Assembly (NCBI GenBank): GCA_947646735.1
Contig: CANTFK010000809.1
Coordinates: forward strand, 1 to 64,000
Direction: 5' to 3'
DNA from: Peronospora farinosa
Taxonomy: Eukaryota; Oomycota; Peronosporomycetes; Peronosporales; Peronosporaceae
Length of the DNA stretch: 64,000 bases
Part shown: positions 1 to 55,952 of the stretch, in pieces
How positions within the stretch are numbered: the first letter of the stretch is position 1
How the letters are laid out: every line of letters starts with the position of its first letter
Position numbers and translations under genes: made by a program
Notes under the pieces: model-generated
Told to the model about the DNA's origin: nothing
The model's input: only the letters and a program-made list of their open reading frames with translations
Databases searched by the model: none

Positions 1-571
1 TCGGCGCCCATGAAGAAGCGTGTCGAGAAACATTACAGGGTTCGCTGGTTGGTATATTCCCCGGCGGACGATACATGGGAGCCATCGAGTACGCTGTCCC
101 AAGGGTATACCAGACGTGGGAGAGGATTATGAGTCGCGTAGAAAGACAGTGATCGCGACCGACGCTGCCGGTTCCATCCCCGATCTCGCGAGCCGTAATG
201 CTCGCGAGCAACGAAACCGCTACGACCTCCCGAGCGACTCCGAGACCGAGACCTATTACGAGGCTCGGGAGCATACGGATGATACGGTTGACGATCTCGG
301 CTACGTGAATGCCGTCGTCGATCGTAAGGACGCGCTCTCACTCTCCGTATCTCGGACACCTGGAGCCCCGAAAGGCTTCTCTCATAACGGGCAATCCATG
401 GACGAAAATGATCGGGCATGCCTCGCGCACACACCAAGTCGTCCCATTCCTGCCGGACCGGTCGCGATCTGCCCACGTTGCACGTTGGACATTCCTCACG
501 AATGTGGACGTAACAAAGGTGATACTCGTCACAAGTCATACGACAGATGCGCCGGTGCAGGTCGCCAATAG
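1..571 (+). pseudogene. Gypsy pol C-terminus with chromodomain, frameshifted
   Basis: Frame 1 begins in a chromodomain (RVEKHYRVRWLVYS, then DDTWEPSS), the same module found at about 45000-45075 in element B. A frameshift near 105 moves the reading frame to frame 2 (GIPDVGEDYES), matching DVPDVVLSYEA in element B. Frame 2 then runs to a stop at 569-571 through a hydrophilic, low-complexity tail. In chromoviruses such a domain is thought to steer integration to particular chromatin. The frameshift marks this copy as decayed. Confidence 0.75.
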
Positions 572-814
572 CGTGTCTATCACGCGTTCCCTCGCGAACA
601 TCTAACCAGGACGTGAAGGACGTTCCTTCACGTCGGCTCGCGTTCCAGCACCTGATGAAGGCACACCAAGACCTCTGCAACGCATCGTCGGTATATGCTT
701 TGTTCGTCGCACTGTACGGTATCGCGTGAAAAGGTCCTTCATGACCTCCAGTGGCTCGGGTTCGACAACACCTTCAAGACCATACAAGCGCCACGCTTTC
801 AAGTCCCCATCCAT
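33..814 (-). pseudogene. Antisense ORF of element B2 (zinc-finger/SR-rich protein, frameshifted)
   Basis: Two minus-strand frames (814-602 and 680-33) together give a protein antisense to the pol tail. The first holds WRLYGLEG followed by VMKDLFTRYR. The second holds MQRSWCAFIRCWN, a CPTC motif, EWDD and WIARYERSL, then an Arg/Ser-dipeptide-rich stretch. The same blocks occur in the same order in the antisense ORF of element B (45896-44579). The frame break lies between the two blocks here, but at a different place in B, so the ancestral ORF was probably continuous. The function is unknown; CxxC plus EW-x-x-H/C-like spacing hints at a zinc finger. Confidence 0.55.
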
Positions 815-1014: not shown

Positions 1015-1333
1015 TGTAATGGGGCAACCTATTACATGAGTAGTTAAAGGATTAATACATAATTACATAAATAGGCATAGGGCAGTATCCGATTAGCGGA
1101 TACTGCGCGTCATTTTATTATTGGTTTATTATTGGGGTGCCAGACCCAATAATTAGCCAATAATAAATTGACTTCCATATTGAGTGGTTCCCATGAGCTA
1201 GGGAACATATTCGCACTTACTGCGAATTAAAACTAAAATAAAAATAAAACAGAGTTATATTTACGAGTTAATTAAGAGCGCTTCCTCAACGCCCTTTTAG
1301 TGTAAGACGGTAACGGGTCCTTAGCCCGTTACA
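1015..1333 (+). repeat. 3' LTR of element B2 (319 bp)
   Basis: Starts TGTAATGGGG after the purine tract and ends CCCGTTACA, i.e. TG...CA. It aligns with the 342-bp LTR of element B through shared blocks (TTTATTATTGGTTTATTATTG, AAAATAAAAAT). Its stems form hairpins: TGTAAT/ATTACA (1015-1036), GCAGTATCCG/CGGATACTGC (1082-1106), GTTCCC/GGGAAC (1187-1206), ATTCGCA/TGCGAAT (1209-1227), GTAACGGG/CCCGTTAC (1310-1332). Confidence 0.85.
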
Positions 1334-1406
1334 TTTTGGAATCTCAGGGACTATGCTATTCATTTGTTCGATTACTCTGAACTTAGGGGTAGCTTCAGAG
1401 TCCGCG

Positions 1407-2505: not shown

Positions 2506-2543
2506 TTAACAACACGCACGGTCAGAGAGACGGGTCGTGGGAA

Positions 2544-2561: not shown

Positions 2562-2563
2562 AG

Positions 2564-3161: not shown

Positions 3162-3197
3162 AAGCAAGCAACTATAAGGAAATACAACGACAAAATT

Positions 3198-28248: not shown

Positions 28249-29766
28249 TTATTCCACAGTCAGCACCTTCAGCATGTTGGTCGAGCCTGAACGGGCTTCT
28301 ACCATACCATGCAGAGCAACGACATTATCGCCAGGCTCCAACCAGCCAAACTGCTTGCCCAGATCCGTAGCACGGAACAGAATTGACTCGGTGCCAATCA
28401 TCGAGCCCATACAGCGCGCTGTGACGCCCTTGTTGAAGCCCTCGGACTGGCGAGCAGTTGCACCCACAGCCGTGAGCACTAGCACTGGCATTGACGGACG
28501 GAACTTAGACACTAAACGTGCGGTATTACCAGACTCCGTCAGCACCACAATCATTTTGGCATCTATATCGATGGCTGTCTTCACAGCCGACGATGTGATG
28601 GCCTCCAGTATGTCCATATGACCGTACGTATCGAGCACCGAGTTGTGCAGAGCTTGGTAGAGCTCGTTATAGTGGATGGCACCTTCCGCTTGCACGCAAA
28701 TCTTGGACATCATCGTCACAGCCTCCGTAGCGTAGTTACCGTTAGCAGTCTCACCCGAAAGCATCACAGCATCGGTGCCGTCAAGCACAGCGTTAGCAAC
28801 ATCCGTACACTCGGCTCGAGTTGGTCGAGGGGCCTTGATCATTGACTCCAGCATTTGCGTAGCAGTCACGACTGGTTTTCCGGCGATATTTGCCTTACGA
28901 ATCATCATTTTCTGGGCCAAGAACACCTTTTCAGGTGGAATCTCCATGCCCAGATCACCACGGGCTACCATGACACCATCCGTCTTGGCCAGAATCTCAT
29001 CAAAGTTTTCTAGTCCTTCTTGATTCTCAATCTTGGCAATTATCTTGATGCCACGGCCGCGGGGACCAAGCACCTTGCGGATATTGTCAATATCCTGACC
29101 CGTGCGCACGAACGACGCGGCGATGTAGTCAATACCGTGCACTAGACCGAAGTTGACGAGATCATCCTCGTCCTTCTCTGTCAGCGTCGGCAGCATCACC
29201 TTGCAGCCGGGCAGGTTCATGTTCTTACGTTCGCTCAGCATTGCAGCATTGTTGGCTCGAGTTACGACGCTGTCGTCCTTGATCTCCGTGACCGTCAGCA
29301 CAAGTGATCCGTCGGCAATCAGAATAGTTCCACCGATTTTGACCGACTGGGGCAGCTTCGGGTACGAGCAGGCGATCTTGGTCTCGTCGCCCAGGAAATC
29401 GTAATCCGTCGTGAGCTCCAATATGGACCCTTTTTTTATATGAACCTTGTCCTTGTTCGCCAAGAAACCCGTGCGGATCTCGGGGCCCTTCGTGTCCAGC
29501 ATGGTGGCGATGTTCTTGTATGGGCGCGTGGCCAGCACTGTCCGGAGTCGGTCGAGCGCCTCAGCGTGACTGCTATGGTCTCCATGCGAGAAATTGAAGC
29601 GAGCTAGGTTCATGCCGGCGTCAATGAGCTCGGTCAGTCCCTTCTTGGACCAACATGTTGGACCTATCGTGCAGAAGATACGTGTCTTACGTGCTATGCC
29701 CTCCGTACTACGCATAATGCTCTCGAGCTCGACGCCCTGCTGACTCAGTCCTAATGCTCCCGACAT
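28249..29766 (-). CDS. PK: Pyruvate kinase, copy 1
   Basis: 505 residues from the Met at 29766 (MSGALGLSQQGVELESIM), chosen because copy 3 begins the same way. The frame is open for 13 more residues to an upstream ATG. Converts phosphoenolpyruvate and ADP to pyruvate and ATP. Visible: FCTIGP, the active-site block MLDTKGPEIRTGF (Glu in GPEIR as in K+-dependent enzymes), KIIAKIENQEG with the catalytic Lys, DGVMVARGDLGMEIP, MIRKANIAGKPVVTATQMLE, and the C-domain with TESGNTARLVSKFRP. Its middle 490 bp appear identical to copy 2, pointing to gene conversion. Head-to-head with copy 2. Confidence 0.96.
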   Translation of the reverse strand: MSGALGLSQQGVELESIMRSTEGIARKTRIFCTIGPTCWSKKGLTELIDAGMNLARFNFSHGDHSSHAEALDRLRTVLATRPYKNIATMLDTKGPEIRTGFLANKDKVHIKKGSILELTTDYDFLGDETKIACSYPKLPQSVKIGGTILIADGSLVLTVTEIKDDSVVTRANNAAMLSERKNMNLPGCKVMLPTLTEKDEDDLVNFGLVHGIDYIAASFVRTGQDIDNIRKVLGPRGRGIKIIAKIENQEGLENFDEILAKTDGVMVARGDLGMEIPPEKVFLAQKMMIRKANIAGKPVVTATQMLESMIKAPRPTRAECTDVANAVLDGTDAVMLSGETANGNYATEAVTMMSKICVQAEGAIHYNELYQALHNSVLDTYGHMDILEAITSSAVKTAIDIDAKMIVVLTESGNTARLVSKFRPSMPVLVLTAVGATARQSEGFNKGVTARCMGSMIGTESILFRATDLGKQFGWLEPGDNVVALHGMVEARSGSTNMLKVLTVE

Positions 29767-30826
29767 GACTACGCAACAGCACCAAAAGATTGTTTTAGTT
29801 GACATGATATCGCTTGCACTTATGATGCACTATCACAACGACATGGTCAGACTGATCGAGACATTACGCTACCACCCGCCCATTTCTGAGGTGAAAGTCG
29901 TAGCGTCCTTCAGTTTACCTCGATTTCTTCGTCACAGTTGGTGCTTCCTCTCCTTGGCTAAAAGCACAATGAAATAACTGTTGCGGGGTAACCCAACGTT
30001 AAAACCACGCGAAGGATCTTGACTTGGCAGTTAGCTCTGAGCTATGTCAATAGAAAGCTCGTTGGGTACACCAGGAATGACACGGGTCCGCATTAGCTTG
30101 TTTGCATTTAGCCGTCGTCATCCAACTCCAGAATGCATTTTGCTCTTTATGCCTCCTCCGACAGTCTCGGTGGACAGACAATACGAGCACTGTAGCAAAA
30201 GAACGGGTTGGTGCTTTTTCTCGGCCGCTTTCGTCGTCAGATGCAGGTTTGCACCAACTAATCTCGTTCTCTTACATGATCGTTAACCACCGCTGGTTGA
30301 GCTCAATTGCCCACCGAAAGCACACCCACTCCCTGTTAGCACCACTATGTTTCTTCATCGACCTTTGTCATCATAAACATGGCAACTACACCATATCGGG
30401 TCGACACCAGCGTATGCAATGTTTGTGACGACATCTATTCTAACCGACGCGGCTAATCAAGAGGTCAGCGTTGTTTCTGCAAAATCTAGCAACGCAAGAC
30501 GTTGACATGTTTTCAAAGTTGCTTTGAAGCGTGAACAAAGTTCTGTAGCAATCACAGCGAGGAGTCTTGTGTAACAGCTTCGATCCACGTTCATCACCGA
30601 TCTTTACAGAGTCGGGGCTTGGCGAGTCATCTACAGGCACCAATGATAATTGTATTATTAGGCACAGCAGGCCCCGGTTCTGTGAAGGAGGAAGCCTTAT
30701 CCAGTAATTTTCGGCTCGCGATGAACTTGCAGACGTCATTCTTCATTTGTTTGCAGACTCCTCACGCAACTTCGACTCACTCACTCACTCACCCACTTAC
30801 TTACCCCCCTTCCTTCTTAGATCATC
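29767..30826. promoter_or_regulatory. Shared divergent region between pyruvate kinases 1 and 2
   Basis: About 1060 bp between outward-facing start codons, so both promoters should lie here. Near copy 2 there is a TCAC-type short repeat (about 30774-30795) followed by a C/T-rich leader. Several 60-110 codon frames occur on both strands but none shows a domain. Confidence 0.4.
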
Positions 30827-32335
30827 ATGTCTGCTTTGTCGCTCAACCTGTTGAATGCCAACTGGATTAAGACGGACATTGAAAATGTACAGCGCAAGAC
30901 CAAGATCTTTTGCACGCTTGGGCCCGCTTGCTGGTCCGAAGAGGGTCTGCTGGAGCTGATCGATGCAGGCATGAACGTGGCCCGCTTCAATTTCTCTCAC
31001 GGTGACCACGCAAGCCATCTGGCTTGTCTGAATCGCCTGCGCGGTGCACTGGCCAAGCGCCCCAACAAGAACGTGGCCATCATGCTGGACACGAAGGGTC
31101 CCGAGATCCGTACGGGATTCTTGGCCAATAAGGACAAGGTGACAATCGAGAAGGACTCGCTCATTGAGATGACGACAGACTATGAATTCCTCGGTGATGA
31201 GACCAAGATCGCGTGCTCGTATCCGCAGCTGCCCGAGTCCGTTCAGGTTGGCGCCTCGGTGCTGGTGGCCGATGGTTCACTGGTGCTAACGGTCACAGAA
31301 ATCAACAACACGAGTATTATCGTCCGTGCTAACAATACGGCAACTCTTGGTGAGCGGAAGAACATGAACCTGCCCGGTTGCAAGGTGATGTTACCGACGC
31401 TGACAGAGAAGGACGAGGATGATCTCGTCAATTTCGGTCTAGTGCATGGTATTGACTACATCGCCGCGTCGTTCGTGCGCACGGGTCAGGATATTGACAA
31501 TATCCGCAAGGTGCTTGGTCCCCGCGGCCGTGGCATCAAGATAATTGCCAAGATTGAGAATCAAGAAGGACTAGAAAACTTTGATGAGATTCTGGCCAAG
31601 ACGGATGGTGTCATGGTAGCCCGTGGTGATCTGGGCATGGAGATTCCACCTGAAAAGGTGTTCTTGGCCCAGAAAATGATGATTCGTAAGGCAAATATCG
31701 CCGGAAAACCAGTCGTGACTGCTACGCAAATGCTGGAGTCAATGATCAAGGCCCCTCGACCAACTCGAGCCGAGTGTACGGATGTTGCTAACGCTGTGCT
31801 TGACGGCACCGATGCTGTGATGCTTTCGGGTGAGACTGCTAACGGTAACTACGCTACGGAGGCTGTGACGATGATGTCCAAGATTTGCGTGCAAGCGGAA
31901 GGTGCCATCCACTATAACGAGCTCTACCAAGCTCTGCGCAACGCCGTTCTTGAGGTGAATGGCCCGATGCAGACGGATGAGGCTGTTGCGTCATCGGCTG
32001 TGAAGACAGCCATCGATATTGACGCGAAGATGCTTGTGGTCCTGACAGAAACAGGCAACACGCCTCGTCTTGTGGCCAAGTACCGTCCGCAGATGCCTGT
32101 GCTGGTGTTGACGGCTTTGGACCAGACTGCTTGTCAGACTGAAGGTTTCGTGAAGGGCGTGGTGTCTCGTTGCGTTGGTTCCATGATCGGCACGGACTCA
32201 GTCTTGTACCGCGCGACGGAGACCGGCAAGGAACTTGGCTGGCTGAAGACTGGCGATGCCGTCGTTGCTGTGCACGGCATCCAGGAGGCCAAGTCTGGGT
32301 CGACGAATCTGCTTAAGATTCTATACGTCGAGTAA
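30827..32335 (+). CDS. PK: Pyruvate kinase, copy 2
   Basis: 502 residues, starting MSALSLNLLNANWIKTDIEN, so its N-terminus differs from copies 1 and 3. The core blocks are the same: FCTLGPACW, MLDTKGPEIRTGF, KIIAKIENQEGLENFDEI, ARGDLGMEIPPEKV, KANIAGKPVVTATQMLESM. The C-domain differs in detail (TETGNTPRLVAKYRP, LDQTACQTEGFVKGVVS), the region that carries allosteric control in this family. Positions 31448-31937 match copy 1 without a difference that I could find, while the flanks show many silent changes. The retrotransposon block begins about 600 bp downstream. Confidence 0.96.
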   Translation: MSALSLNLLNANWIKTDIENVQRKTKIFCTLGPACWSEEGLLELIDAGMNVARFNFSHGDHASHLACLNRLRGALAKRPNKNVAIMLDTKGPEIRTGFLANKDKVTIEKDSLIEMTTDYEFLGDETKIACSYPQLPESVQVGASVLVADGSLVLTVTEINNTSIIVRANNTATLGERKNMNLPGCKVMLPTLTEKDEDDLVNFGLVHGIDYIAASFVRTGQDIDNIRKVLGPRGRGIKIIAKIENQEGLENFDEILAKTDGVMVARGDLGMEIPPEKVFLAQKMMIRKANIAGKPVVTATQMLESMIKAPRPTRAECTDVANAVLDGTDAVMLSGETANGNYATEAVTMMSKICVQAEGAIHYNELYQALRNAVLEVNGPMQTDEAVASSAVKTAIDIDAKMLVVLTETGNTPRLVAKYRPQMPVLVLTALDQTACQTEGFVKGVVSRCVGSMIGTDSVLYRATETGKELGWLKTGDAVVAVHGIQEAKSGSTNLLKILYVE

Positions 32336-32937: not shown

Positions 32938-33541
32938 TGTAGACGGGCACTTCTACGAAGTTGCCTCGTACTACGAGCACACACCTTATGCACAAGCGAG
33001 GAAGCGGTTATACCGTCTTACCTTTGCGTGCGAGGGTGGTTGGGAGGCTGGTCGACTGCCTAAGCAGTCGTACCACCAGTTGCCTCTCGCTTAAGCGAGA
33101 TTGCAACGAACTTCTTAACACTAAAGCACCGACGTCACGCAGAAGTCTTTCAAACTTCTCGTGCGTGGTGTGTATGTTTAAGTAAATTCAAGACTGAGCT
33201 ATATTTAATTAATTATAACTAATATATACTTAACTACAGATTGGCTATATATATATATATATATAGATTGGATACGCGACTCTTTAGAAGCGTATCCTGT
33301 CGCATGATCTTAAATCTAGATTTAAGATCGCAACTGACGTCCTTCTGAGACGTCGTGATGCCTAGCTTCAACTAGCGTCATCCCTTCTCATGTGAATCCA
33401 TAAATGAATATCACATTCACGAGGGTGGATCACGTTTGTGTATCGCACCCAAGTGACAAGTCAAAAGTAATCATGGATACTTTTAGACCAAACATTAAGT
33501 ATATTACTTAATGTTTACGTGTAACTAGGTACCCTGTTACA
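32938..33541 (-). repeat. 3' LTR of element A (604 bp)
   Basis: Plus-strand TGTAGACGGG...CCCTGTTACA; homologous to 47750-48347 (598 bp) with a few percent difference by eye, so this element is older than B. Contains a short (TA)n run at about 33246-33265. Confidence 0.92.
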
Positions 33542-33647: not shown

Positions 33648-35093
33648 ATGCCACCGAAACGTGGTAAGACTGATGGGTCGCCTGCAAAGGCACCCATGCA
33701 GTCCAGCACTAAGCGCACGCGCCGCGATTTATCGCAGCCGTCGCAAAGTGCGTCAGGTACTGGGGTGAATCTTCCATCTCACGATAATGGGGATGAAGAT
33801 CCATCTCTCATTGTTGACTACAATGAGACCACACCACTGCCATCACCCCAAAGTGGCGATGAGCATAGTGCATTGATGGGACATATGTCCCCATCATTTG
33901 AGGCACCCGTCCTTGAGGAAGCATCTATGCTTCCTACAAGCGAAGGTAAAGCCTCGTCGTCTGCGCCTACGAGCACAGCGACTAAGACTGAGCACGCTAC
34001 TTCGAAAGGAGTAGTCGCGACTCAGTCAGATGTAACTTCTCAAGCTGATGTCTTGACAATCCATAATGGAGAGTCAGACTCAGGTGAGTGTGAGCTTAGA
34101 GCTCCACCAAGTACACCTTTGGCCTCACTAGCCCGCCGTCGCGAGGGCGGCTACGTGAGTGGTGGCTTGCCACCAATGCCACCTCCATCTGAGTGGATGA
34201 ACTCGGATGGGTCTAGCGCAGCGCTTTTGCAGCGTGCCACTATAGACGCTCATAGATTCTATAGCGTCTTTCCTTTGTGGAAAAAGCAGGGCAAAGCACT
34301 TGGTCGTGCTTTCCCAATTCCAGTCGTGCTGCGTTCTAACGAAACAGCCAACAACTATGAAGCTGAACTTCGGCGCCGTGTTACCTTGCATGAAGATGCA
34401 ACGAAACAGCGGTCGCAGCGAATCAGCTTCGCCATGAAGCGTGCGCATGAAATTATGGGCGGTAAGAGACCCCCAATTAATTCTCGCCACGCTTCTTCTG
34501 CTAGTCCTTCCGGACCTAGCAGAAAGAAGACAGCTGGTGCTGCTTCACATAAGCAGCCACCAGCCCAGGCACGTCAACGCGCAAAGCGTCCACAGGCTCC
34601 CACGAGTCAAAGCTCGTTGGGTAACCCTTCCACTGGACCAGGATTTGGAGCTTTCGCTTTACAAACCGGTGGGCCAACAGCCTTCCAACAAGGAAGCGCG
34701 TGTTCCCATCCGTGTCCACCTACACAGGTGGCGCCCGATAGGAGTGGCGATTACACCCACCTACTCGCGGCTGCCTACCCTGCTGCTTTTCAGTCGCAGG
34801 CTGAGTCCGCTGCGCTGAAGAGGCAGGTGACAGATCTCGAGAGTCAAGTCTCGCGACTGACCTCGGATCTGCGTGATGTGAGGGCGAGAGACCGTCAGGG
34901 GTATGACCGCCTGAAGACCCGTTTGGACATTCTAGAGCGACTGGTAATGAGAGACCCGCGTCAAGCTCGGAGTCCTCCTCGATCACCGAGTCCTCTATCG
35001 CCTCGTTCATACACGGGGAGCCTCTCGGCTTCCTCGTCGCCTGATCGGTCGCGACGCTCGACTCACAGTCGACGTCACCATCGGTCTCGTTAG
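33648..35093 (+). CDS. Antisense ORF of element A (coiled-coil, SR-tailed protein)
   Basis: 481 residues, open without interruption although the sense pol it overlaps is frameshifted several times. Starts about 107 bp inside the 3' LTR, pointing away from it, so it could be transcribed by an antisense promoter in that LTR. Visible parts: Ser/Thr/Pro-rich N-terminus with basic starts (MPPKRGKTDG), a middle block with FYSVFPLWKKQGKALGRAFP and a basic helix (YEAELRRRVTLHEDATKQRS), a coiled coil (about 390-432: ALKRQVTDLESQVSRLTSDL ... RLDILERLVM) and an Arg/Ser tail (RRSTHSRRHHRSR). Positions 34516-35093 are antisense to the pol C-terminus; 33648-34515 overlap no sense ORF. The coil end (ILERLVM) resembles ILERQML in the antisense ORF of element B. 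Function unknown. Confidence 0.6.
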   Translation: MPPKRGKTDGSPAKAPMQSSTKRTRRDLSQPSQSASGTGVNLPSHDNGDEDPSLIVDYNETTPLPSPQSGDEHSALMGHMSPSFEAPVLEEASMLPTSEGKASSSAPTSTATKTEHATSKGVVATQSDVTSQADVLTIHNGESDSGECELRAPPSTPLASLARRREGGYVSGGLPPMPPPSEWMNSDGSSAALLQRATIDAHRFYSVFPLWKKQGKALGRAFPIPVVLRSNETANNYEAELRRRVTLHEDATKQRSQRISFAMKRAHEIMGGKRPPINSRHASSASPSGPSRKKTAGAASHKQPPAQARQRAKRPQAPTSQSSLGNPSTGPGFGAFALQTGGPTAFQQGSACSHPCPPTQVAPDRSGDYTHLLAAAYPAAFQSQAESAALKRQVTDLESQVSRLTSDLRDVRARDRQGYDRLKTRLDILERLVMRDPRQARSPPRSPSPLSPRSYTGSLSASSSPDRSRRSTHSRRHHRSR

Positions 35094-38000
35094 ACCTATG
35101 TGGATATGTGATCTCTTCTGGATCAACATACCGCTTCAGACGACCCACGTAAAATACGGGGTGCGTCTTCATATACGGTGGGAGAGTGAGCCTATAGTTT
35201 AGGTCTCCAACCTCCTCGACCACTGTAAAGGGCCCAATGAATCGGGGCAATAGCTTAGTAGTACCACCAGGTAGTACAGAGATTGCATGTTTAGGTAGGG
35301 TAGCAGTACTTAATAGCACTTTCCCCCACACTAAAGTGTTCATTGTTTTTGCGACCATGCTGGTCTGCATATTGTTTTTGCTTGTCCTGTGCGCTTTCCA
35401 TAGCGTCACGGACTTTACGTGTGATGGCTAATCGCTCATCCACAAAGCGCTGAGCTTCGCTCACGCTTTTAGCATCCAGCTCGCCGATGACGCCTCCAAG
35501 AGGTCGTTCATGGGTCGACGCTGTTGACAACACTAGTGTCATCATCAAGGAGCACTGGCATTTCTTGCCGTGCCTCCTTTGTGACACCTATAGGTGTCGT
35601 GACCACTGCTAAACTAGCAGTGTCACTAGGGCAACCTTGGCCCTCTTTGGCATTCGCACCGAGCGAAGTGAGGGCCCCCCCCCCACTAAGACTCGGGCTG
35701 CGTACAAACGAGACTGGCGTTCGAGGATGACGCAGTCCGTTAATGTAAAACGGTGTTTCACCCGTACTGGCGTGAACACTGTTATTAATAGCAAACTCCG
35801 GACTGGCAATTGCTTGCTCCATTCCTTAGGAGTCGCTATTGTACGCAACACATCCGCCACGACTCGATTGGCCCGTTTTGTTTGGCCATCGGTCTGGGGA
35901 TGATCAGCGGTTGACATGTGGAGCTTGCTACCCAGCAGCTCGAACACATGTCGCCAAAAACCCGACGTAAAACGCGGATCCCGGTCCGATACTATGGACT
36001 CGGGCATCCCGTGTAGTCGATACACGTGATCCAGGAACAAGAGGGCAGCCTCTTTTCCTGAGATCTTGGTGCTACATGGTGCCAAATGCACCATCTTGCT
36101 CAGTCTGTCTACAAAGACGACGAGCCCCGTCCTGTCTTTATGGTCAGGCGGTAAGCCAAACATGAAGTCCAAACTGACCGACTTCCAACATTCAGTTGGA
36201 ATCGGCAGTGGCTTCAGTGGCGCACTGTTTGAAGGTGCAGGCTTTAATGCGCTGACACTCTTCACAAGAGCGAATATAGTTGGCCACCCACCGATATAGG
36301 TGGGGCCACCAAAATTACTCTGACACTCGTAAGAATGTCTTTTCACGGCCCAGATGCCCACTAGATGGCGCATCATGGCACTCGTGAAGTATCATCAGCT
36401 TGAGATCTGTGTCATGAGGGACATAGATTCTCAAGGGATCACAGGGTGACAGTTGATGCCATAACAGGCCATCACTGTAACTAAAGCGATTTAGTTTCGC
36501 TTTGAGGTGCGACGGAAGGGTAACCTTTCGTCCACCAAAATGATCCAGCAGCAGGCGACAATGTTCGTCCTGACTGTAACACTCCTTGATATCGGAGGCC
36601 ATTGAGCTCCTTAGTTCAATTGCATTCATGGCCGCTACACGGTCATCGGTAGAGGTTTTCTTGGCTTTAAGTGTGGTCGCCAGATCAAAGATGCTGCCAG
36701 ATGACGTTGCGAAGATCTGGAAAGTTGTGAGTGATAAGGGAAGACATTGAACTACCAAAGGATGGTAGGCCTTCATGGCTGCCAATGTTGACGACTCAAC
36801 TTGTGCTTTCGCACGAGACACACTATCCTGGTGTCTTGCCTCGAAGTCTGGTCTGCGCGATAACGCGTCAGCCAAGACATTCGACTTACCCGGCTTATAT
36901 TTAACTTTGAAATTAAATTCAGAGAAGAATGTCAGCCATTTTGCCATTCTCGGCGAGAGGTGCGGTGAATTTATAGCGGTCCGCAGTGATGCGTGATCCG
37001 TATAAACCACAAAAGGTTCGGTGCCCAAGAGGTGCACCCGAAACTTCACAAGGGCATACTTAATTGAAGATAGCTTCTTGTCATGCACAGGGTAATTCAG
37101 CTCGACAGCTTTTAAAAGCCGAGACTGATAAGAAATGACACGGTCAACGCCGTTGTCATCCTTCTGCATGAGCGCGCTGCCGATTGTAAAATTGCTTGCA
37201 TCGCAGACGACGCTAAAGGTCTTATCCGCGTCTGGCAATGCCAAGACCGGTGCCTCTACAAGAGATTGCTTCACTGATGTGAACGCATCTTCTTGTTTCC
37301 TTTGACCAAGTCCATTCTGTATCCTTTTTTAAAAGGTCAGACAATGGCTTGGTCTGCTCCGCATAATTCTTGCTGTACTTATGCAAGTAATTAGCGAGCC
37401 CAAGGAATTGGCGCAGATCCTTCACATGTCGTGGGACTGGCCATTCCTTTACAGCCTTTACCTTTTCTGGGTCTGCTCGTACACCATGTGCACCTACGAT
37501 GCAGCCCAGTACAGGTATCTCGGGGACCCCTATTACGCACTTTTGCAAGTTAACGTAAAATTGGGCGTCACCCAGAGTCTGCAACACAGCGTCTAAATGA
37601 CGCTTGTGCGACTCTATTGCGCTTAGACCGTCCTCCGCCCTACTATGCACGAATACATCGTCAAAGTAATGGGGCGCGTAGGCACGGTGCTGACGCATCA
37701 CGTGAGCCACTACTCGGTTGAATGTTGCCGGAGCATTTTTCAACCCTTGTGGCATCACAAGCCACTCCCACAGCATACCGCTTGGGGTGCTTACTGCCGT
37801 TTTGGCTACATCGGTATCTCTCATGAGAACCTGATAGTAGCCATCCTTCAGATCCAACGCGGAAAAGATAGTTGACTTTCCCATGGAATTCAACAGGACA
37901 TCTTTCCGCGGGACCGGCGTTTGAGTTGGAATGGTGGCCGTGTTCAGCTTATTATAAGCATGAACTACGCGACATCCACCCGTTGCTTTACGCACACAGA

Positions 38001-38550
38001 AGGTCGGGCTGCAGTGAGGCGACTTGCTCTCACGTACATGTCCCGCCTTGGCTCGCTTGTCGAAGAACTCATCGATGTAATCGACTTGTTCCTTCGGCAA
38101 CGGCCATTGCCTGGTCACACAATACTTGGTGCCAGGCTCCAGGTCAATTTCGTGCCTGATGCCCCTATCGGCCGGTAGGCGGCTCGGCACTTCTGCTGGA
38201 AACACATCACGGTGTTTCCACAGAACATCATAGAACGGGCTGTCCTTCAAGGCTTCCCAGCCTTGAGCAGCGAACCGTTTCTTTTCGTTGGTCTCCAAGA
38301 CGCTCTCATCCATTGTGGATGAAGAGCAACAGTCCACCACGTTCTCTTCTGGAACTGGTGCGACTATCTCGTGGATCTTTCCTTCCTTTAGTTCGGACAG
38401 GAACAGATCCCACGTCATCTCCGAGAGATTTACTATCTCCTCGGCAGATGCCAAGACAAGTTGGAGCACCTCAACTGAGGATGCCTCCGGCATTTTGTCT
38501 TCGACGGCCTCGAACAACTCGTTCGTAGGTCCGTCCTCTTGGACCGAGAC
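34516..38550 (-). pseudogene. pol: Gypsy pol of element A, 3' portion: RT, RNase H, integrase, chromodomain
   Basis: Read downward from 38550: linker, reverse transcriptase (37222-38517 frame; [14 protein letters not shown] and the catalytic YFDDVFVHS near 37655), RNase H (37274-36315 frame; [20 protein letters not shown]), integrase with HHCC start (HDAPSSGHLGREKTF), and a DDE core (SLDFMFGLPPD, SDRDPRFTSGFW, HPQTDGQTKRANR; about 36210-35870). Then come the C-terminal FYVGRLKRYV region and a chromodomain (ILVQWKGYPTSFDSWEP, about 34655). Frame changes near 37280, 36330, 35800 and 35330, plus an in-frame TAG near 34720, show it cannot make a full product. The last 580 bp overlap the antisense ORF. 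Confidence 0.9.
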
Positions 38551-38551
38551 T

Positions 38552-38556
38552 GATCC
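38552..38556. repeat. Target-site duplication of element B, left copy
   Basis: GATCC directly before the LTR start TGTAATGGGC. The identical GATCC follows the right LTR at 46252-46256. Confidence 0.9.
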
Positions 38557-38898
38557 TGTAATGGGCTACATTACACATATAGCATTAACACAAATAAACA
38601 ATTACATATGTAGGCAGGTGCTGGGCCCGAATAGCGGGCACAGCGTGGTAATTTATTATTGGTTTATTATTGGGCCTAAAGTCCCCAATATGGACCAATG
38701 ATAAATCAACCTGAAATTGTGTGGTTCCCGAAAGGCGGGAACACTGTCGTATTTATTACGACTAAAATCTTCGTAATTAGTACGAATTAAAACCAAAATA
38801 AAAATCAGAGTTAAATTTACTTAATACCTAATACTCGGGCTTGAGTCTTCCTCAAGCGCACGTGTAAGCTAGTGACGGTACGTTCTAGCCCCGTTACA
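38557..38898 (+). repeat. 5' LTR of element B (342 bp)
   Basis: TGTAATGGGC...CCCCGTTACA. Contains a string of hairpins: TGTAATG/CATTACA (38557-38575), GCCCG/CGGGC with GCTG/CAGC (38618-38644), GTTCCCG/CGGGAAC (38724-38742), GTCGTA/TACGAC (38746-38762), TTCGTA/TACGAA (38770-38786), GCTTGAG/CTCAAGC (38839-38857). Confidence 0.95.
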
Positions 38899-38900
38899 CC

Positions 38901-38919
38901 TGGTAGCACTTTGTAGTCC
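38901..38919 (+). other. Primer-binding site of element B
   Basis: TGGTAGCACTTTGTAGTCC starts two bases after the LTR. Its first nine bases equal those of family A (2561-2553 and 47747-47739 on minus), suggesting the same primer tRNA for both families. Confidence 0.6.
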
Positions 38920-38924
38920 TTCCT

Positions 38925-39929
38925 ATGCCCGAGTTTGGGATGAGCGAATCGTCGTACTTTGACGCTCCAGATTTATTTCTGGAGCACGCGACCTTCCCCC
39001 ATCTTACTGGTGTTGAGTGGGATGCCCTTAATCGCCTCGCGGCGATATCGGGAGAGGCATTCGTCGCGTCGCTGATGAGATCAGCGACCCCTGACGCGCA
39101 ACGTCTCGCCATACATGAGTTTATGGCACGCGAGCTCGCCGAATCCAACCGGCGAGGCTTAACTCCCTCGCGCCCTTCACGTAATGAGGCCGTGAAGATG
39201 GAAACCTCCTCCTACTCTGGAGAAGGTAAGGACCGGTTATCGCTGAACCGGTGGTTCCGAGAAGTTGATATCGCCATCGCCTCGAGACTTCTTGAGGCTC
39301 CACAGGCGAAGGTCAACTTTCTTCTTTCCCGCCTCACCGGGAAGGCCAAGGAGTGGGCCCTTGGTAAACTCGTTGTGGACGAGCACGCATTTCCCACCTT
39401 GGATACCATCCAGGACGATCTCCGTCTTGCCTTCGAGCCACCACAAGAGGAGAAACTGGTGCGATCAAGATTCCTGTCGATGCGACAGGGTAAAATGGCG
39501 ATGCGCGACTACGTACAGATGGCTAGGCATCTGGCGTCGTGTATTATCACGCACCCCATGGACATGTACACACAGGTGAATGTCTTTGTGGATGGTATGC
39601 GTGAGGGGCAGACCCGCTTATCGCTGGAGCGCGCCGAGCCTGCCACATTGGAGGAGGCATTCGCCATCGCACTCCGTGAAGACTTTAGGGTCACAAAGGC
39701 CTATGCCAAACCCTCGGTCGTCAGCGTTCCCCGGCCTTCTGGCCCAGAACCTATGGAGATCGACGTTATTGAGTCGTCGGGTGACCGGCGACGTGTCTTT
39801 CATCATAAAGGTGACGCTCGCACCGGGCGTCCAATGGTTTGCTTTCGTTGTCTCAAGCCAGGACATCGCGCGGCAGAGTGCCGTGCGCCAGCCCCGATTA
39901 TCGGTGCAAGTAGTGGACGCCCATCATGA
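38925..39929 (+). CDS. gag: Gypsy Gag of element B
   Basis: 334 residues, 26 bp after the LTR. It contains a retrotrans_gag core ([68 protein letters not shown]) and a CCHC zinc knuckle [14 protein letters not shown] near residue 308. The stop is TGA in the context TCA TGA GGG. The same frame stays open beyond the stop and leads straight into protease, so Pol may be made by stop-codon readthrough. Alternatively the TGA may be a CGA-to-TGA mutation. Full-length and otherwise intact. Confidence 0.92.
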
Positions 39930-42900
39930 GGGTGCTGTACCGGCCGCACGTCCAAAAAACGGTCGGGACCAGTAGGTGCAGGGCGCCCTACTGGTTGGAA
40001 CGGAGGTCCGGGTCCCCCGGTGGCAGCCCAACCTTCCAGTCCTCCTGCGATACGCGCACGGTTAAATGCCACCACTACGAGTGGTAATTCACGTCTGATT
40101 ATTGTCAGTTTACATGTCGCCGGCGTCCGGCGACCTCTGCGAGCACTCCTGGACTCAGGAGCAACAAACAATTTCTTTCGTGAATCTTGTTTGTCGATGC
40201 TGCCTCCCAGCATTCAGGTCCGTGAGAGACCTGGCCAAGTCGTCGTCAAGTTGGCTGACGGGAAACCACACCGCGTATCGCGGCGCGAAGTGTCGTTGCC
40301 GTACACGTTTGATGGCTTTCGCAGTAATGATGATTTCTTGGTGATCGCGATGAATTATGCATTCGATTGCATACTGGGCATGCCATGGTTGGCACGTTAT
40401 AAGCCCCAGATCGACTGGTTAGCCAGATCAGTGAGACGTCGACGCAAGTTCGATGTCAGTGAAGTGTTTACCCATCTCTTGGTATCTCCAAGTGACTGGC
40501 CAAACGTCACAGTCGTGGATCGCGATTTCACGACGTTGGCGGTGCACAGAGCGAGCGATGGCCCTCTCTGCACTGCTTGTGCTGTTCTTCGGGACACAAG
40601 TGACAGTGACTCCTCGCTACAGAGCGAAGAGGACGACGAGGACGACGCGGTCGAACAGGGGTTCCCGCGCGTCATTAATGCGGTTGAACAGGGGTTCCCG
40701 CACGTGAATGCAGTGGTTGAACCGGGGTTCCCATCTGCACCTATTGTGGTCGAGCAGGGGCTCCCCCAAGGGCATTGTGGCGACGAGCAAGAGCTCGCCA
40801 GCGAGTGTGACGTGGACGGACAGGAGTCCTCACGCGAGAGCATGATGGTCGAACCGGGGTTCCCATCATCACCCACTGTGGTCGAACCGAGGTTCCCACA
40901 TGGGCATATTGTGGTCGAGCAGGGGCTCCCACACGAGTACAACGTGGACGGACAGGAGTCCCCACGCGAGAGCATGATGGTCGAACCGGGGTTCCCATCA
41001 TCACCCACTGTGGTCGAACCGAGGTTCCCACATGGGCATACTGTGGTTGAGCAGGGGCTCCCACGCGGGTTTACGGCGGCCGAGCAGGAGCTCCCGCATC
41101 AAGTGTCGACGGTCGAGTTTGGGGTACTCCCGTCCAGTGTTTCCGGCATCTTGGATGACGACATCCAGTGCCTAGAGGGGGGTGATGGTTTATCACCTGA
41201 CTGCGGTTCGCCAGCTTCGAGTAGTGACTCGAAGCACGATGGGGACAACAGCACCGAGAATATAGCGTTGGAATGTGTCCACGCTATCGTGTACGTGGAA
41301 GGGAGTCCACAAAGGCGCCAATATATTGAGGTCGAGAGTCCTCCTCGTAATGCGTCTTCCATTACAAGTCTTCCAGGGCTTTCCTGGAAGCATTTCCTAC
41401 GTGACCTTAAGGGAGGCACTGTGGAACAAGTGTGTCTAATCACCAACGAGGTGGTTACCGTGGCAAACGAGGAGCATATGGCGCGTCCTCAAAGCGCTGA
41501 GCCGAAGTCTGCGCGTGAAGAAAGGTTTGCATCACAGTCATGGGAGGCCCTGCGAGAGTCTGGTAACCCCGTCTACGACATTGCTCGTGAGTATGCAGAC
41601 GTGTTCCCGGACAAGATCCCGGCTGAACTTCCTGCGGACCGCGGTGTTCGGCACGAGATTGATCTCGTGCCAGGGTCGAAGTATTGTGTGACACGGCAGT
41701 GGCCGTTGCCTCGAGATCAAGTCGAAGCTATTGACGCATTCTTTGAAGGCCGCCGCAAAGCGGGTCATGTGCGGGAGAGTATTTCACCACATTCGAGTCC
41801 AACCTTCTGCGTGAAGAAGGCTACGGGAGGCTGGCGGATAGTGCATGCGTTCAATAAGTTGAATGATGCCACTATTCCTGCGCAAACGCCAATTCCCAGG
41901 AAGGACATGGTGCTGAATTCCATGTCAGGTAGTGTCATCTTCAGTGCCATCGACTTGACCGATGGCTTTTACCAGATTTTGATGCGCCCGAGCGATATCC
42001 CACTCACCGCGGTGAGCACCCCGAGTGGCATGTTATGGGAGTGGCTGGTAATGCCACAAGGGTTGAAGAACGCTCCGGCCACTTTCAATCGCATGGTGTC
42101 TCAAGTGTTGAGACCTCTTCGGAACTTTGCCCCAAGTTATTTTGACGATATCTTCGTCCATAGTCGCGCCGAGGGCAACCTCAACGATGTCCAAGTTCAC
42201 CTTCAACACCTGAAGCAAGTGTTTCAAGTTATGCGGGACAACAAGTTGTACGTGAATCTCAAGAAGTGTGTCTTTTGTGCACCAGAGATTCCGGTGTTAG
42301 GTTGCTATGTGAGTAAATCGGGAGTTCGAGCTGATCCAGAGAAAGTGTCGTCCATCTGTTCTTGGCCCACGCCCAAGAACCCTACGGAGTTGCGCCGGTG
42401 GCTCGGCTTGGCTAATTATTTGCACAAGTATACGAAGGATTATGCTGGTTCTATCCAGCCTTTGTCGTCACTCTTGAAGAAAGACGCCACGTGGTTGTGG
42501 CGTCCCGAGCACCAAGCAGCCTTCGAAGCAGTAAAGAAGAGCCTAGCTTCAGCGTCAGTCCTGGTCCTACCAGACGATTCCAAGCCGTTCCACGTGGTTT
42601 GCGACGCCAGTGATTTTGCAATCGGTTGTGCCCTCATGCAATTTGATGATGAGGGCCGTGAACGAGTCGTGAGTTATAAGTCGCGACAGATGAAGCCAGC
42701 TGAGAAGAACTATCCGGTTCACGACAAGGAGTTACTAGCGATGCGCTATGCACTCATCAAGTTTCGCGTGCATCTCCTTGGTGAAAGTACGTTTGCTTTG
42801 TACACCGATCATGCATCGCTGCGCACAGCGATGAAGAGCCCACACCTGTCCTCAACGGATGGCACGATGGCTCTCATTCTTCCCTGAGTACAACTTCGTC

Positions 42901-45438
42901 GTGCATTACAAGCCAGGCAAGACCAATATTCTCGCTGACGCCTTGTCACGACGTCCCGACTACGATCCTCGGACTGCTCTGAGTCGCCAGGCTACTGATG
43001 ACGAGGACGATGATGACCGATGTGCAATGTGTGTATCGCTGAACTTAACTCGGGTTACACCCGAGCCGTGTTTATTTGATGAGATCGTCGCAGCGTACAA
43101 GGGTGACTCAGATTATGCAGACATTATCGAGTATCTGCGTGCTCCCAGCGATGCTGCACTGGGAGCATTATCCCGAACCAAGCGCGACCACATTCATCGA
43201 TACAGTTTAGACGGCGATTTGCTTCTGTATAGCATCGACCAATTCGATGCTCCTCGCACGGTGATCGCCAACGACATGGATTTGCGTGCAAGAATCATCC
43301 ACGAATACCACGATGCCCCTGCTGGCGGCCATTTAGGCTGCGAAAAGACTTTTGCGGCTGTGTCTCGAGACTTCTTCTGGCCCCACATGTATAAGTGGGT
43401 ACGCAACTGGATCCGAACGTGCGAAATATGCCAGCGTGTGAAGCCATCTCCATCGTCACAGGCTCCCTTGCGATCGTTGCCAATTGCAGCAGAGGCCTGG
43501 AGATCAGTTTCGATGGACTTTATCTTCGGGCTTGCGCCCGATAGCCAAGCTCGAACGGGCATCTTGGTCTTTGTTGACAGATTCAGCAAGATGACACATC
43601 TCGTGCCTGTTCACGCTAAGGTCACCGCGGCAGAGACCGCGGCGCACTTCATCGACGCGGTGTTCCGTCATCATGGCCTTCCAGAAAACATTGTTTCGGA
43701 CCGTGATCCGCGATTTACGTCCGCATTTTGGACATCACTTTTCGAGCTCCTCGGGACAAAACTGCTGATGTCGACGGCAGCCCATCCGGAAACGGATGGG
43801 CAGACCGAGCGCGTGAACCGAGTCCTCGAAGATGTTCTTCGGAGTTATGCTACGTCATTTACAAGTTGGAGTGCATTTTTACCACTCGCTGAGTTCGCAC
43901 TCAACAACGCCGTACACGCGTCAACAGGGTTGACGCCATTTTTTGTGAATTCGGCTCGTCACCCTCGTGTTCCTACTGTCCTGGCCGTGGGGCGACCCAC
44001 AACACCTAGTGGCTCCACTCTGGGGGGGGATAAAGGTGATAAACAAGGATCGAGTGCAGCTCACGGTATTTTGAGCGCGAATGCAGTAACACGATCCAAG
44101 GCAAAGACGGCCATTTTGACGCCATCAGACGTGGCGTCCCCATTAGCTCGATGGACTGCGCAGACATTGATTGACCCGTCTTCGGGTAAGCGTTCCCCTA
44201 CTGCCAACTACGCGCCGATTGAGTCGGCGCGACCAATTGATGACATGGCCGTGTCGGAATTTATACTCCAACGTCAAGCCATCACCAGGTTTGTACGCGA
44301 CGCACTACAAACTGCTGTAGACCTACAGAAGGAGAACGCTGACAAACATGGAAGAAAGAACATGAGCAAGTTTGAGAAAGGTGACCGTGTATTATTATCG
44401 ACGGAAGGTTTAAGGGATTCTGCGGTCACTAATCTGGGCGCGAGTAAACTCGCGCCACGCTTCATCGGTCCATTCAAGGTTCTGAAGGCAATTGGCGACG
44501 CTCATACACTCGACGTCCCCTCTTCACTGCGACTCCACCCGACATTCTATGTCGGGCGGCTGAAGGAATATCGTCCGGCTACGCTTCACGGTTTGGCTCC
44601 GACGCCGGCTTCAGGGGTTCGTAAGTCGAACGGCCTTCCCGTCGCGCTCGACGCGCCGATGACATGGGGCGGGGTCTCGATCCCGTCTGAATCTGACCAA
44701 GCATCTGGCGCTCCAGAATCCTTATCCGCTCGAGCAGTTCACGGTTCGACTGCCGGGTCTCACTCGAAGTCTTCTCCGCCTGGGCAGCACGTTCACTGGC
44801 AGCCTCAGCCTCCAGCCGAGCATCGGCAGCTATGTTCACGGCCTGATCAACATCGTCCTGAGCAACCAGGACGCCAGCTCTACCACCGCGAGAGCCATCC
44901 TCCGCTTGTTGATGCGGAGGGACAGGTGCGCTGGATTGTAGACCGCATTGTGGGTCACGAGGACCCTCCACAACCATTACTGCAGTCGGCTCATGAGAAG
45001 CGTGCGGTTCCATCCGTGCGTAGGTACCGAGTACGTTGGCTTGGATTCCCTCCCGAGCAGGATACATGGGAACCACGTTCCTCGCTCCTTCGTGACGTTC
45101 CAGATGTGGTTCTGTCGTATGAAGCCACGAAGTCGGACTATTCCAAGGCGGGCGAGCACGCGAACGCTCTCGTGACAAACGAGAGCGGTAAGGAGATTCA
45201 CGTTGTCGGAAACGGGAACGATGACAAGAACGAGAACGATGTCGCGAACGCAAACGATGTCGCGAACGAGATCGATGCCGTGATCGAGAATGTCGCGGTG
45301 AATACATATCACGATTGCGAGGCGAGAATCGCGCAACTGGACGGGCAGGCGAACGTGTCGCTGCCCTGCGCTGATGATCCCGCGGAGATCGACTCCGCTG
45401 TCGCGAGTGGTGCCGCCAGCAGGGCGCACCACGAATAA
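39930..45438 (+). pseudogene. pol: Gypsy Pol of element B (protease-RT-RNase H-integrase-chromodomain), one frameshift
   Basis: In frame with gag behind a TGA; the first Met is at 40020. Protease: [11 protein letters not shown] (about 40145) and [18 protein letters not shown] repeat-rich linker follows (40640-41100). [22 protein letters not shown] and the catalytic YFDDIFVHS (about 42136). RNase [19 protein letters not shown] and [21 protein letters not shown] 1-bp insertion near 42851 shifts the frame; the open frame resumes at 42859 ([13 protein letters not shown]). Integrase: HHCC domain (43300-43445), then DDE residues in SMDFIFGLAPD, SDRDPRFTSAFW and HPETDGQTERVNR. C-terminus: FYVGRLKEY, chromodomain (YRVRWLGFPPEQDTWEP, about 45025-45075) and a low-complexity Asn/Asp/Val tail. 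Confidence 0.92.
40640..41100 (+). repeat. Repeat-coded linker between protease and RT of element B
   Basis: Encodes many copies of a short unit of the type VEQGFP / [11 protein letters not shown] / VEQGLPHG. A larger block of about 132 bp (about 40836-40967 and 40968-41090) is repeated in tandem. Element A has a different but also repetitive linker in the same place (about 46300-46560). Such linkers may be cleaved or act as spacers. Confidence 0.8.
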
Positions 45439-45896
45439 CTGCGCTTCTCCGTTCGCCCAGACTTCGCTCATACTTCGCAATCCAACTTCGTTCGCGATCA
45501 CTGAGTGGACACTCAGCGATGTGTCGTCGCCATTCGTCATGAGTTGGGCGTGGAGTCGAGTCACAAGATTGGCATCCGATTCCAACGTTGGATGAAGGCG
45601 AACCAAGAACGTTGTAGAGCTTCATGCTCGATTCCATCAAGACCTTTCCCGCGCAGCTTTCGAAATCGGCGGAAGTAGTCCCGCATCATGTCCAGTGAGT
45701 CCGGAGCGTGAGCTCCGGACAAGTCGTACAGCGACCAAGGTATGAGCTGCCGCGCCATGATGTTGGTTGATGCACTCCCGCTGACGTTCCTTGGGAGTGC
45801 TGCTGGACTGGGTGTTGGGTCTCCGGACATTTCTTGTTCGTTTGTGGGCGAAGGGTTTTCGACAGTTGAGCACTCACGGTTGGTGAGTGCTGTCAT
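44579..45896 (-). pseudogene. Antisense ORF of element B (zinc-finger / SR / coiled-coil protein)
   Basis: Starts 13 bp inside the right LTR, next to the PPT, and runs back across the end of pol. The first frame (45896-45561) holds IPWSLYDLSG, MMRDYFRRFRKLRG and LQRSWFAFIQRWN. After a frame change the second (45640-44579) holds CQSC, DEWRRHIAEC, SWIAKYERSLGE, an Arg/Ser-rich domain (SRHRSRSRHRLRSRHRSRSC) and a C-terminal coiled coil (ETRQSNRELLERIRILERQM). Combined length is about 440 codons. The first block lies beyond the pol stop (45438), yet its counterpart in element B2 is conserved with conservative changes (WRLYGLEG, VMKDLFTRYR), which argues for real protein coding. Role unknown. Confidence 0.6.
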
Positions 45897-45909: not shown

Positions 45910-46251
45910 TGTAATGGGCTACATTACACATATAGCATTAACACAAATAGACAATTACATATGTAGACAGGTGCTGGGCCCGAATAGCGGGCACAGCGTG
46001 GTAATTTATTATTGGTTTATTATTGGGCCTAAAGTCCCCAATATGGACCAATGATAAATCAACCTGAAATTGTGTGGTTCCCGAAAGGCGGGAACACTGT
46101 CGTATTTATTACGACTAAAATCTTCGTAATTAGTACGAATTAAAACCAAAATAAAAATCAGAGTTAAATTTACTTAATACCTAATACTTAAGCTTGAGTC
46201 TTCCTCAAGCGCACGTGTAAGCTAGTGACGGTACGTTCTAGCCCCGTTACA
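45910..46251 (+). repeat. 3' LTR of element B (342 bp)
   Basis: Same length as the left LTR, with about five differences by eye (for example TACTTAAGC here versus TACTCGGGC). Followed by the duplication GATCC. Confidence 0.95.
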
Positions 46252-55093: not shown

Positions 55094-55952
55094 TTTAACC
55101 CTTGCAGGGACTTGCCATAATCGTTAAACGTGTCCTTGACTTGGAACATTCTGCTTTGTACTAACTTATCTCATTTTACTCCGGAGAGCATATTGAGTGG
55201 CACTCCGCTATTCCACTGTATTCCCTATACAATTATCTAGTAAAAAAGACAGTCGATCTTCAACCGGACTCGACGAGCAAAGATTTCGACGGTCAGAAGT
55301 CGACGATCAATACTCGACGACTGGAGTCTTGATGGCGTAAGTCGCTGTGGTCGACTTATAGAATATCACAATAATGATATTCCCTACACCACAACACCCT
55401 CTAGACAAGGATATAGGAAATCAAGAACACACTTTACTTCCGGACGCATGCCAGACGCGTTTCGGCCCACTGCCGCTGGCCTCTTCAAAGGCTTACCGAT
55501 AGCAAAGTGATCTTACTCCGTCCAGCGGCCTCTGCCGCTGCCGCTCTCATGCAATATGAGGGTCAAGAGCGCGTCGTGAGTTTCCAATCACGACCAATGA
55601 ATTATGCAGAGAAGAGTCCTCAACTCGTGGACATCGTCCAAAAATCCTTCTTTTCCTGTCGTGAAGCTAAGAAGTACGATACCGCCTAACAAAGTGGTGC
55701 GAACACACGAGACCATGTAAATTCCATGTCGGAACAATCGAACAGAATCATCCCTCGCGCTGTCGACACTTTTTCGCGTATATTAAAATATCAAAGTTTG
55801 TATGCTCTTCGTGCCAAATTAATCGACTTAAACAGGGTATAACAGAATCAGCGACATAATCATCTCGATTGCAAAAAGCGCAATCTCCCTCCCCCTCCCC
55901 ACAGTCGAACAACACCCAAAGACCACAGAGAAATTTTTCACTTGATCTAACT
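55094..55952. other. Spacer between Copia element and pyruvate kinase 3
   Basis: Contains a Gypsy RT fragment (55507-55689) and, at 55268-55345, four spaced TCGACG motifs. The 3' part is the C-rich leader of pyruvate kinase 3 (CCCTCCCCCTCCCCA near 55890). No gene is seen. Confidence 0.45.
55507..55689 (+). pseudogene. Gypsy RT/RNase H fragment
   Basis: A short frame with ALMQYEGQERVVSFQSRPMN and YAEKSPQLVDIVQKS. It matches the RT-to-RNase H junction of elements A and B ([20 protein letters not shown], then [14 protein letters not shown]) but is diverged and lacks the rest of the domain. An old fragment from a further Gypsy copy. Confidence 0.65.

Follow-up and report, generated by a model that had tools for sequence, protein, structure and literature searches.

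The 64,000-nucleotide window of Peronospora farinosa DNA analysed here (GCA_947646735.1, contig CANTFK010000809.1, positions 1 to 64,000 of the forward strand) contains three Ty3/Gypsy retrotransposons, referred to as A, B and B2, each of which has an open reading frame (ORF) that runs opposite to pol. This antisense ORF is about 460-500 codons long, begins just inside the 3' long terminal repeat (LTR), extends over the tail of pol and stops no more than 14 codons from the SH3 motif of the integrase. It almost certainly represents a real protein under selection, and the explanation that on balance appears probable is that it constitutes a third, antisense gene of the chromodomain-bearing Ty3/Gypsy elements of the Peronosporaceae, the product of which would act in the nucleus.

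What is the evidence that a frame on the opposite strand of a retrotransposon encodes a protein? An origin by chance is excluded by the copy number, by relatives at 46-61% identity and by a codon test, in which the antisense frame is seen to be kept by selection during element replication. This is clear in A, weaker in B and based on limited data in B2.

Antisense frames and selection upon them

The antisense frames lie in the window as follows.

33648..35093, plus strand: antisense ORF of A, 481 codons, ATG start, unbroken in the window copy, opposite pol
45561..45896, minus strand: antisense gene of B, part 1, 111 codons, covering the initial part of the helical N domain
44579..45640, minus strand: antisense gene of B, part 2, a 353-codon ORF beyond a 146-nt deletion near 45578
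33..680, minus strand: antisense remnant of B2, 215 codons, frame broken in the window copy

As an earlier, sequence-only reading of this DNA had claimed, these frames run opposite to pol from just inside the 3' LTR, with the start being about 107 bp inside it in A (LTR at 32938-33541) and 13 bp inside it in B (start at 45896), and the 481-codon frame of A is indeed unbroken. The pol stop at 34720 in A is a lesion that occurs in two of the 12 copies examined, namely the window copy and L025. In the other ten, pol continues through the chromodomain (Pfam Chromo in copy L002, E=8.4e-9) to a stop at the equivalent of 34516, and since this is where pol ends, about 191 codons of the A antisense ORF overlap pol and 289 lie outside it. 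The antisense codons past the pol stop number 201 in B and 114 in B2.

The genome searched comprises 46.85 Mb in 274 contigs. The match lists for A (89, window copy included) and B (117) hold the best matches by similarity to the query; these include partial matches and, for B, several members of a deletion group. For B2, 161 matches were listed. No stop occurs within the matched stretch in 32 of the 89 A matches listed and in 24 of the first 30 of the 117 B matches listed. The frame of the window copy of B is split into its two ORFs because of the 146-nt deletion, which has identical aligned breakpoints in all ten copies of the subgroup L031-L040 (L031 being the window copy), where mean divergence is 1.0% and one pair is identical. 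Intact B frames of 460-502 codons are found elsewhere in the genome, and frames of 468-471 codons are present in all eight other B2 copies read, which were chosen for a long open frame; the B2 copy L072 has an altered antisense C-terminus. These uninterrupted frames uphold the earlier view that the broken B and B2 genes of the window descend from a single frame. The protein blocks that the two were said to share are also real. In a comparison of every open segment from a single B copy and a single B2 copy, the antisense pair gave the best of all six-frame pairings outside pol (47% identity over 85 residues, E=3e-25), with a weaker shadow in a sense frame (38% over 65, E=6e-9). Over this region the rate of non-synonymous change (dN) is 0.61 and that of synonymous change (dS) 1.8-3.0, the latter being saturated.

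The codon evidence is direct in A because variants were split into those present in a single copy, which mostly reflect decay after insertion, and those present in at least two copies, which were mostly passed on by replication, thereby separating post-insertion decay from selection in the replication phase. Replacement and silent changes were counted against expectation, with an assumed transition weight of 3, to give a ratio w; near-duplicate copies may make decay appear shared, which pushes w towards 1. For A, the sample consisted of the best-matching 30 of the 89 listed copies. Across the 289 codons outside pol the shared variants comprise 49 silent changes, 53 replacements and no stop (w=0.42, binomial P=1e-5), whereas the single-copy variants comprise 64 silent changes, 180 replacements and four stops (w=1.11; Fisher p=9e-5 against the shared class). 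For shared variants the other frames of the same region give w values of 1.63, 1.61, 1.06 and 1.56, and the sense frame that has its wobble positions in common with the antisense frame gives 0.66 with five stops. Within the overlap itself the DNA of A is divided between the two genes. Pol holds the chromodomain, where the shared variants give w=0.18 for pol (nine silent, two replacement, two stops) and 4.81 for the antisense frame (one silent, 12 replacement), and the antisense gene holds the linker, which encodes its coiled coil, with w=0.30 for the antisense frame (22 silent, 15 replacement) and 2.61 for pol (five silent, 32 replacement).

The B sample of 28 copies was formed by dropping ten deletion copies and adding eight more diverged ones. 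Outside pol it gives w=0.61 for shared against 1.25 for single-copy variants (p=0.02), and in the overlap constraint is weak in both frames, if there is any (antisense 0.85, pol 0.69). For B2, with eight copies, shared variants in the overlap give 0.24 for the antisense frame and 1.69 for pol, and outside pol there are just three shared variants, which are too few. The measurement of dN/dS outside the overlap, which the sequence-only reading had put forward as a check, thus came out in favour of constraint in A and more weakly so in B, with too few variants to speak for B2. The pattern of selection implies that the antisense protein serves the element during its replication.

Common layout, relatives and protein features

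How similar, then, are the antisense genes of the different elements? The pol segments of A and B match each other (E=1e-19). BLASTP finds no antisense match between A and either B or B2, and a comparison of the A and B family profiles returns a probability of 6% (E=0.006), restricted to the C-terminal half. The arrangement is nonetheless common to all three elements, judged from one copy of each, in its register, in the position of the antisense stop and in the place of the chromodomain. The register between pol and the antisense frame is equal. Measured in codons from where the SH3 motif YVGRLK ends, the antisense stop lies at 14 (A), 5 (B) and -1 (B2), and the WxG of the chromodomain is opposite antisense codons 327 in A, 328 in B and 288 in B2. 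The likeness of A and B that had been noted at a coiled coil ending in ILER-x-(V/M) therefore extends further, to a collinear layout.

A search for relatives in other oomycetes gives independent support to the antisense genes. There are 18 B-type proteins, at 34-65% identity, from six Phytophthora species (Phytophthora capsici, ramorum, rubi, fragariae, nicotianae and megakarya), two Peronospora species (Peronospora matthiolae and destructor) and two further sources, and where named they are annotated as hypothetical, uncharacterised or unnamed. At 93% identity, an unnamed protein of P. effusa matches the antisense product of A, and such protein matches place the window in this species, the spinach downy mildew, or in a close relative of it. 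A-type relatives come from P. effusa, P. farinosa and further contigs, the full-length ones reaching down to 46% identity. The conserved blocks of the B type are PW.LYDLSGA, YFRRFR.LRGK, LQRSWCA.I.RWNRM, REE, CY.HV.EGC..C, W....E.PLS and WIAKY.R.L, then a serine/arginine (SR)-rich stretch and then RQSNRELLER.R.LER. Those of the A type are MPPKRG, KRTRR, DPSL.VDYNE.TP, GGYVSGG.PPMPPPSEW, DAH.YY.VF..WK.QGK.LGR..PIPVVLR.NET.D.YEAE, KQRSQRI.FA and DLESQVSRLTS.L...RAKDRQGY.RLK.RLD..E. The A-type proteins P0012, P0014 and P0033, together with other 'ena'/'lgn' proteins, are on contigs of 1-4 kb, which would be a first hint of transcription if these are transcriptome assemblies.

Do the relatives overlap a chromodomain as well? 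This can be addressed from their proteins alone, by choosing for each the synonymous codons that best encode a chromodomain on the opposite strand and scoring the result. In the expected register, 16 of the 18 B-type proteins each outscore every one of 60 shuffled versions of themselves; for the two exceptions, P0027 and P0030, the scores are 168 and 159 in the neighbouring register, as would be the case for frameshifted antisense proteins. Against the A chromodomain, all five A-type proteins tested score 230-259 of 277, where the shuffle maximum is 154; against the B chromodomain all six A-type proteins beat their shuffles, P0006 narrowly (115 vs 109), and with the A chromodomain two B-type proteins failed to exceed theirs. 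When homologues of equal antisense identity were simulated, none of 300 reached the observed score for any of 16 B-type proteins (P0027 and P0030 being left out) or five A-type proteins, the simulated homologues being scored at one place only. On the strength of the codon-compatibility and simulation results, the antisense gene and the chromodomain most likely share the same DNA in the relatives too.

The A protein consists, in order, of an N-terminal part with MPPKRG and KRTRR, a helical block at about 180-270, a stretch opposite the chromodomain, a predicted coiled coil at 378-435 and an RS-rich tail. In the window copy of B, part 2 covers the region from the CxxC motif to WIAKYERSL, an SR-rich stretch, the coiled coil and a basic tail. 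The structural model of the B protein has a mean predicted local distance difference test score (pLDDT) of 61, with a helical domain at residues of about 61-200 (pLDDT 79-94), a partly SR-rich region of low confidence at about 211-390 and a single long helix at 395-451, which may be read as a coiled coil. The A model, with a mean pLDDT of 48, shows helices within 193-269 at middling confidence and a long helix at 378-435. No Pfam family, in a search of the window ORFs and of 20 B-type and seven A-type members, and no PDB sequence accounts for the A or B antisense protein. KRTRR and PKRG are putative nuclear signals, and the RS stretches may be nuclear-speckle or RNA-binding features.

Setting of the elements in the window

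Element B, on the plus strand, is nested within element A, on the minus strand, and is flanked by a GATCC target-site duplication; the remainder of A is on the far side of B. The parts of the three elements are as follows.

32938..33541, minus strand: 3' LTR of A, 96.4% identical to its 5' LTR
34516..38517, minus strand: left part of A pol (reverse transcriptase, RNase H, integrase, SH3, chromodomain), several ORFs in the window copy
34540..34701, minus strand: chromodomain of A pol, antisense to codons of the 33648 ORF, placed by frame and by the Pfam match of copy L002
47750..48347, minus strand: 5' LTR of A
38557..38898, plus strand: 5' LTR of B, inside A, 98.5% identical to the B 3' LTR
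38925..39929, plus strand: B gag (Ty3 capsid, weak zinc knuckle)
40020..45438, plus strand: B pol in two ORFs (protease, reverse transcriptase, RNase H; integrase, SH3, chromodomain)
45910..46251, plus strand: 3' LTR of B
20..571, plus strand: C-terminal fragment of B2 pol, on the strand opposite to the B2 antisense ORF
1015..1333, plus strand: 3' LTR of B2, the element ending at the left window edge

The B chromodomain is found at about 44935-45124 (Pfam E=2.8e-7). Between the protease and the reverse transcriptase, B pol carries in-frame repeats with a spacing of 33 nt (40647-41093) that encode a VVEPGFP-like repeat peptide. Adjoining B2, at positions 1335-3163, are an LTR and a gag that belong to a further A-like element, into the internal region of which B2 seems to have inserted, like B into A. 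Elsewhere in the genome the contigs C213, C248, C266, C57 and C216 each contain at least two A copies, in some cases facing opposite ways; these may represent clusters that are nested or palindromic.

The LTRs of B and B2 are 66% identical over 288 columns, and each contains two CCAAT and two ATTGG motifs, giving CCAAT boxes on both strands where 0.2-0.5 of each would be expected; as a sign of a bidirectional promoter this is at most a hint. An antisense transcript driven by the LTR is likely.

Three further genes of the window encode pyruvate kinase (PK barrel plus PK_C), at 28249-29805, 30827-32335 and 55869-57470, of which two form a divergent pair with starts 1 kb apart and the third is about 23.5 kb off, with repeat blocks that are 73-86% alike in DNA. 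Host genes that surround the elements encode a voltage-gated chloride channel (3505-6150), a myosin with a C-terminal PX domain (17966-22651) and a fused trehalose-6-phosphate synthase/phosphatase (58180-61611).

Possible roles and known antisense genes

What might such a protein do for the element? Transcription would begin at an antisense promoter within the 3' LTR. The protein, with its helical domain, basic/RS-rich stretch and predicted coiled coil of about 57 residues, would enter the nucleus and self-associate or dimerise through the coiled coil. Its RS/basic part could bind RNA, chromatin or splicing/export factors, such that the protein would control how the element's own RNA is transcribed, spliced or exported, a function like that of HBZ of the human T-cell leukaemia viruses (HTLV) or of Rev/Rex. 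A nuclear dimerising regulator is favoured because of the position and layout of the gene and the known parallels, these being HBZ and the plant antisense proteins termed aORF-3R. A nuclear regulator of the element's own RNA has about an even chance of being correct.

A number of results weigh against this explanation, or against parts of it. With the first 30 B loci pooled, deletion copies included, w is 0.79 against 1.00, a difference that is not significant (p=0.59); the wobble-sharing sense frame of B is as low as the antisense frame (0.54 vs 0.61) and three shared variants are stops; and the B overlap shows no sub-region division of the kind found in A (linker: antisense 0.82, pol 0.72). 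The subgroup with the deletion, to which the window copy of B belongs, amplified to ten copies with its antisense gene broken. Since this subgroup lacks part of the N domain and still amplified, the antisense protein probably acts in trans or is dispensable. The oomycete core-promoter motifs INR, FPR and INR+FPR, as defined in PMC3599244, were not found on the antisense side of the A, B and B2 LTRs, that of B2 being scanned up to 49 bases before its end. The confidence of the A model is low, and the Pfam search detected no domain for RNA, chromatin or nuclear import.

Four other explanations have to be considered. It is extremely improbable that the frame is an untranslated by-product of codon bias on the sense strand. 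Part of the ORF does lie opposite pol, and stretches such as APMY...TQAN may be conserved only via the chromodomain, but 289, 201 and 114 codons extend past the pol stop in A, B and B2, where conservation between B and B2 is, among all six frames, highest in the antisense one; moreover, the shared variants of A avoid replacements and stops, and the A linker and the B2 overlap are constrained in the antisense frame and not in pol. Could the antisense RNA alone be what matters, by pairing with genomic RNA and feeding small-RNA silencing or copy-number control, with the protein incidental? Silencing roles of antisense transcripts are discussed for plant elements in the accessible text of PMC7264820, and small RNAs of P. 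infestans map to Gypsy elements in both orientations according to that of PMC3522703. Such a role would, however, predict neither the bias towards synonymous sites nor the lack of shared stops in A, and would not predict protein blocks conserved at 34-65% identity across genera, which makes it very unlikely.

A protein is also what is envisaged if the product is structural, acting as a second nucleocapsid-like or envelope-like factor on the particle or pre-integration complex. Nucleic-acid packaging would be compatible with a protein that joins a helical globular domain to a coiled coil and a basic, SR-rich stretch. Yet Gag, capsid, zinc-knuckle and envelope families have no Pfam match in the 20 B-type and seven A-type members, the N-terminal helical domain of B included, and Foldseek, run with the whole B model only, gave no significant match in PDB or BFVD; this alternative is considered unlikely. 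Finally, the gene might have been captured from the host by transduction and be of no use to the element, since LTR elements are known to capture host genes (PMC7264820) and a diverged single-copy host homologue could have escaped a search in which the best candidates alone were scored. Against this stand the many relatives in the genome, as counted in the match lists, and the fact that relatives in other genera show the same chromodomain overlap, from which it follows that the gene travels with the element; capture is highly improbable. The view of the sequence-only reading that these ORFs are real protein genes of an unfamiliar type is supported, by selection in A and by the relatives in other species, and the preferred explanation remains a third gene of the element with a possible nuclear role.

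A broader proposal can be made more tentatively, with somewhat less than an even chance of holding as a whole: that the antisense gene arose once, before A, B and B2 split, as a core third gene of Peronosporales chromodomain Gypsy elements, overprinted on the pol tail; that its N domain has diverged past sequence recognition, with alternating constraint blocks in A; and that its product is a nuclear regulator of SR/coiled-coil type, which parallels, by independent origin, retroviral HBZ and the plant aORF-3R proteins. The gene is also of wider significance. The A overlap is a clear case of antisense-overlapping genes that alternate in their control of the same DNA, 'hypothetical' or 'unnamed' proteins in oomycete catalogues are relabelled from supposed host genes to element genes, and the role of antisense proteins for retroelements becomes testable in culturable Phytophthora species.

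How does this gene compare with antisense genes already described? Among oomycete elements, the chromodomain Gypsy elements known as Chronos are defined by a second, plant/archaeal-type RNase H (PMC5348765, accessible text). Like them, A and B have a chromodomain C-terminal to the integrase, but in their pol pieces Pfam detects Gypsy RNase H models alone and no RNase H of the plant/archaeal type. The word 'antisense' is absent from the accessible text of the Chronos paper, and a literature search, with most subscription papers beyond its reach, returned no antisense gene of this kind for oomycetes. Additional antisense ORFs are already known in plant and fungal LTR elements, and the oomycete case is new as far as that search went.

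The retroviral parallel is HBZ of HTLV-1, an antisense gene with its promoter inside the 3' LTR (PMC7264820, PMC11963269, in the parts available). The present gene shares with it the antisense arrangement and, by prediction, coiled-coil and basic regions; no homology is claimed, and no bZIP match appeared in the Pfam search. The fungus Botrytis cinerea provides another extra antisense retrotransposon gene outside plants, brtn of the Boty element (PMC7264820, PMC8365987, accessible parts), which is likened to the present gene by description and not by sequence. The plant aORF-3R genes form a further parallel, being antisense ORFs between pol and the 3' LTR that are exemplified by gene23 of maize Grande, rice RIRE2, Silene Retand and bean PvRetro13 (PMC7264820, PMC11963269, accessible parts). 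The Grande protein is described as nuclear and as transcribed antisense from its own upstream region in the available part of a review (PMC7264820). Like these, the oomycete gene is antisense to gag-pol at the 3' end, beside the 3' LTR, and occurs in many copies and several species, with function unassigned in the accessible accounts of the plant genes. It differs in that it also overlaps the tail of pol, covering the chromodomain and reaching the SH3 end of the integrase, and in having an oomycete host. Retand, on the other hand, has a separate region of 2.9-6.6 kb between pol and the 3' LTR in the source as available, and unlike the Retand TRP28 protein, the oomycete proteins gave no match to TRP28/Transposase_28 (PF04195) or SMC in the Pfam search. 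The earlier plant and fungal antisense ORFs, as far as the accessible sources go, are unassigned in function and without codon-level proof of selection on the protein, whereas family A gives direct codon-level evidence that selection keeps the protein.

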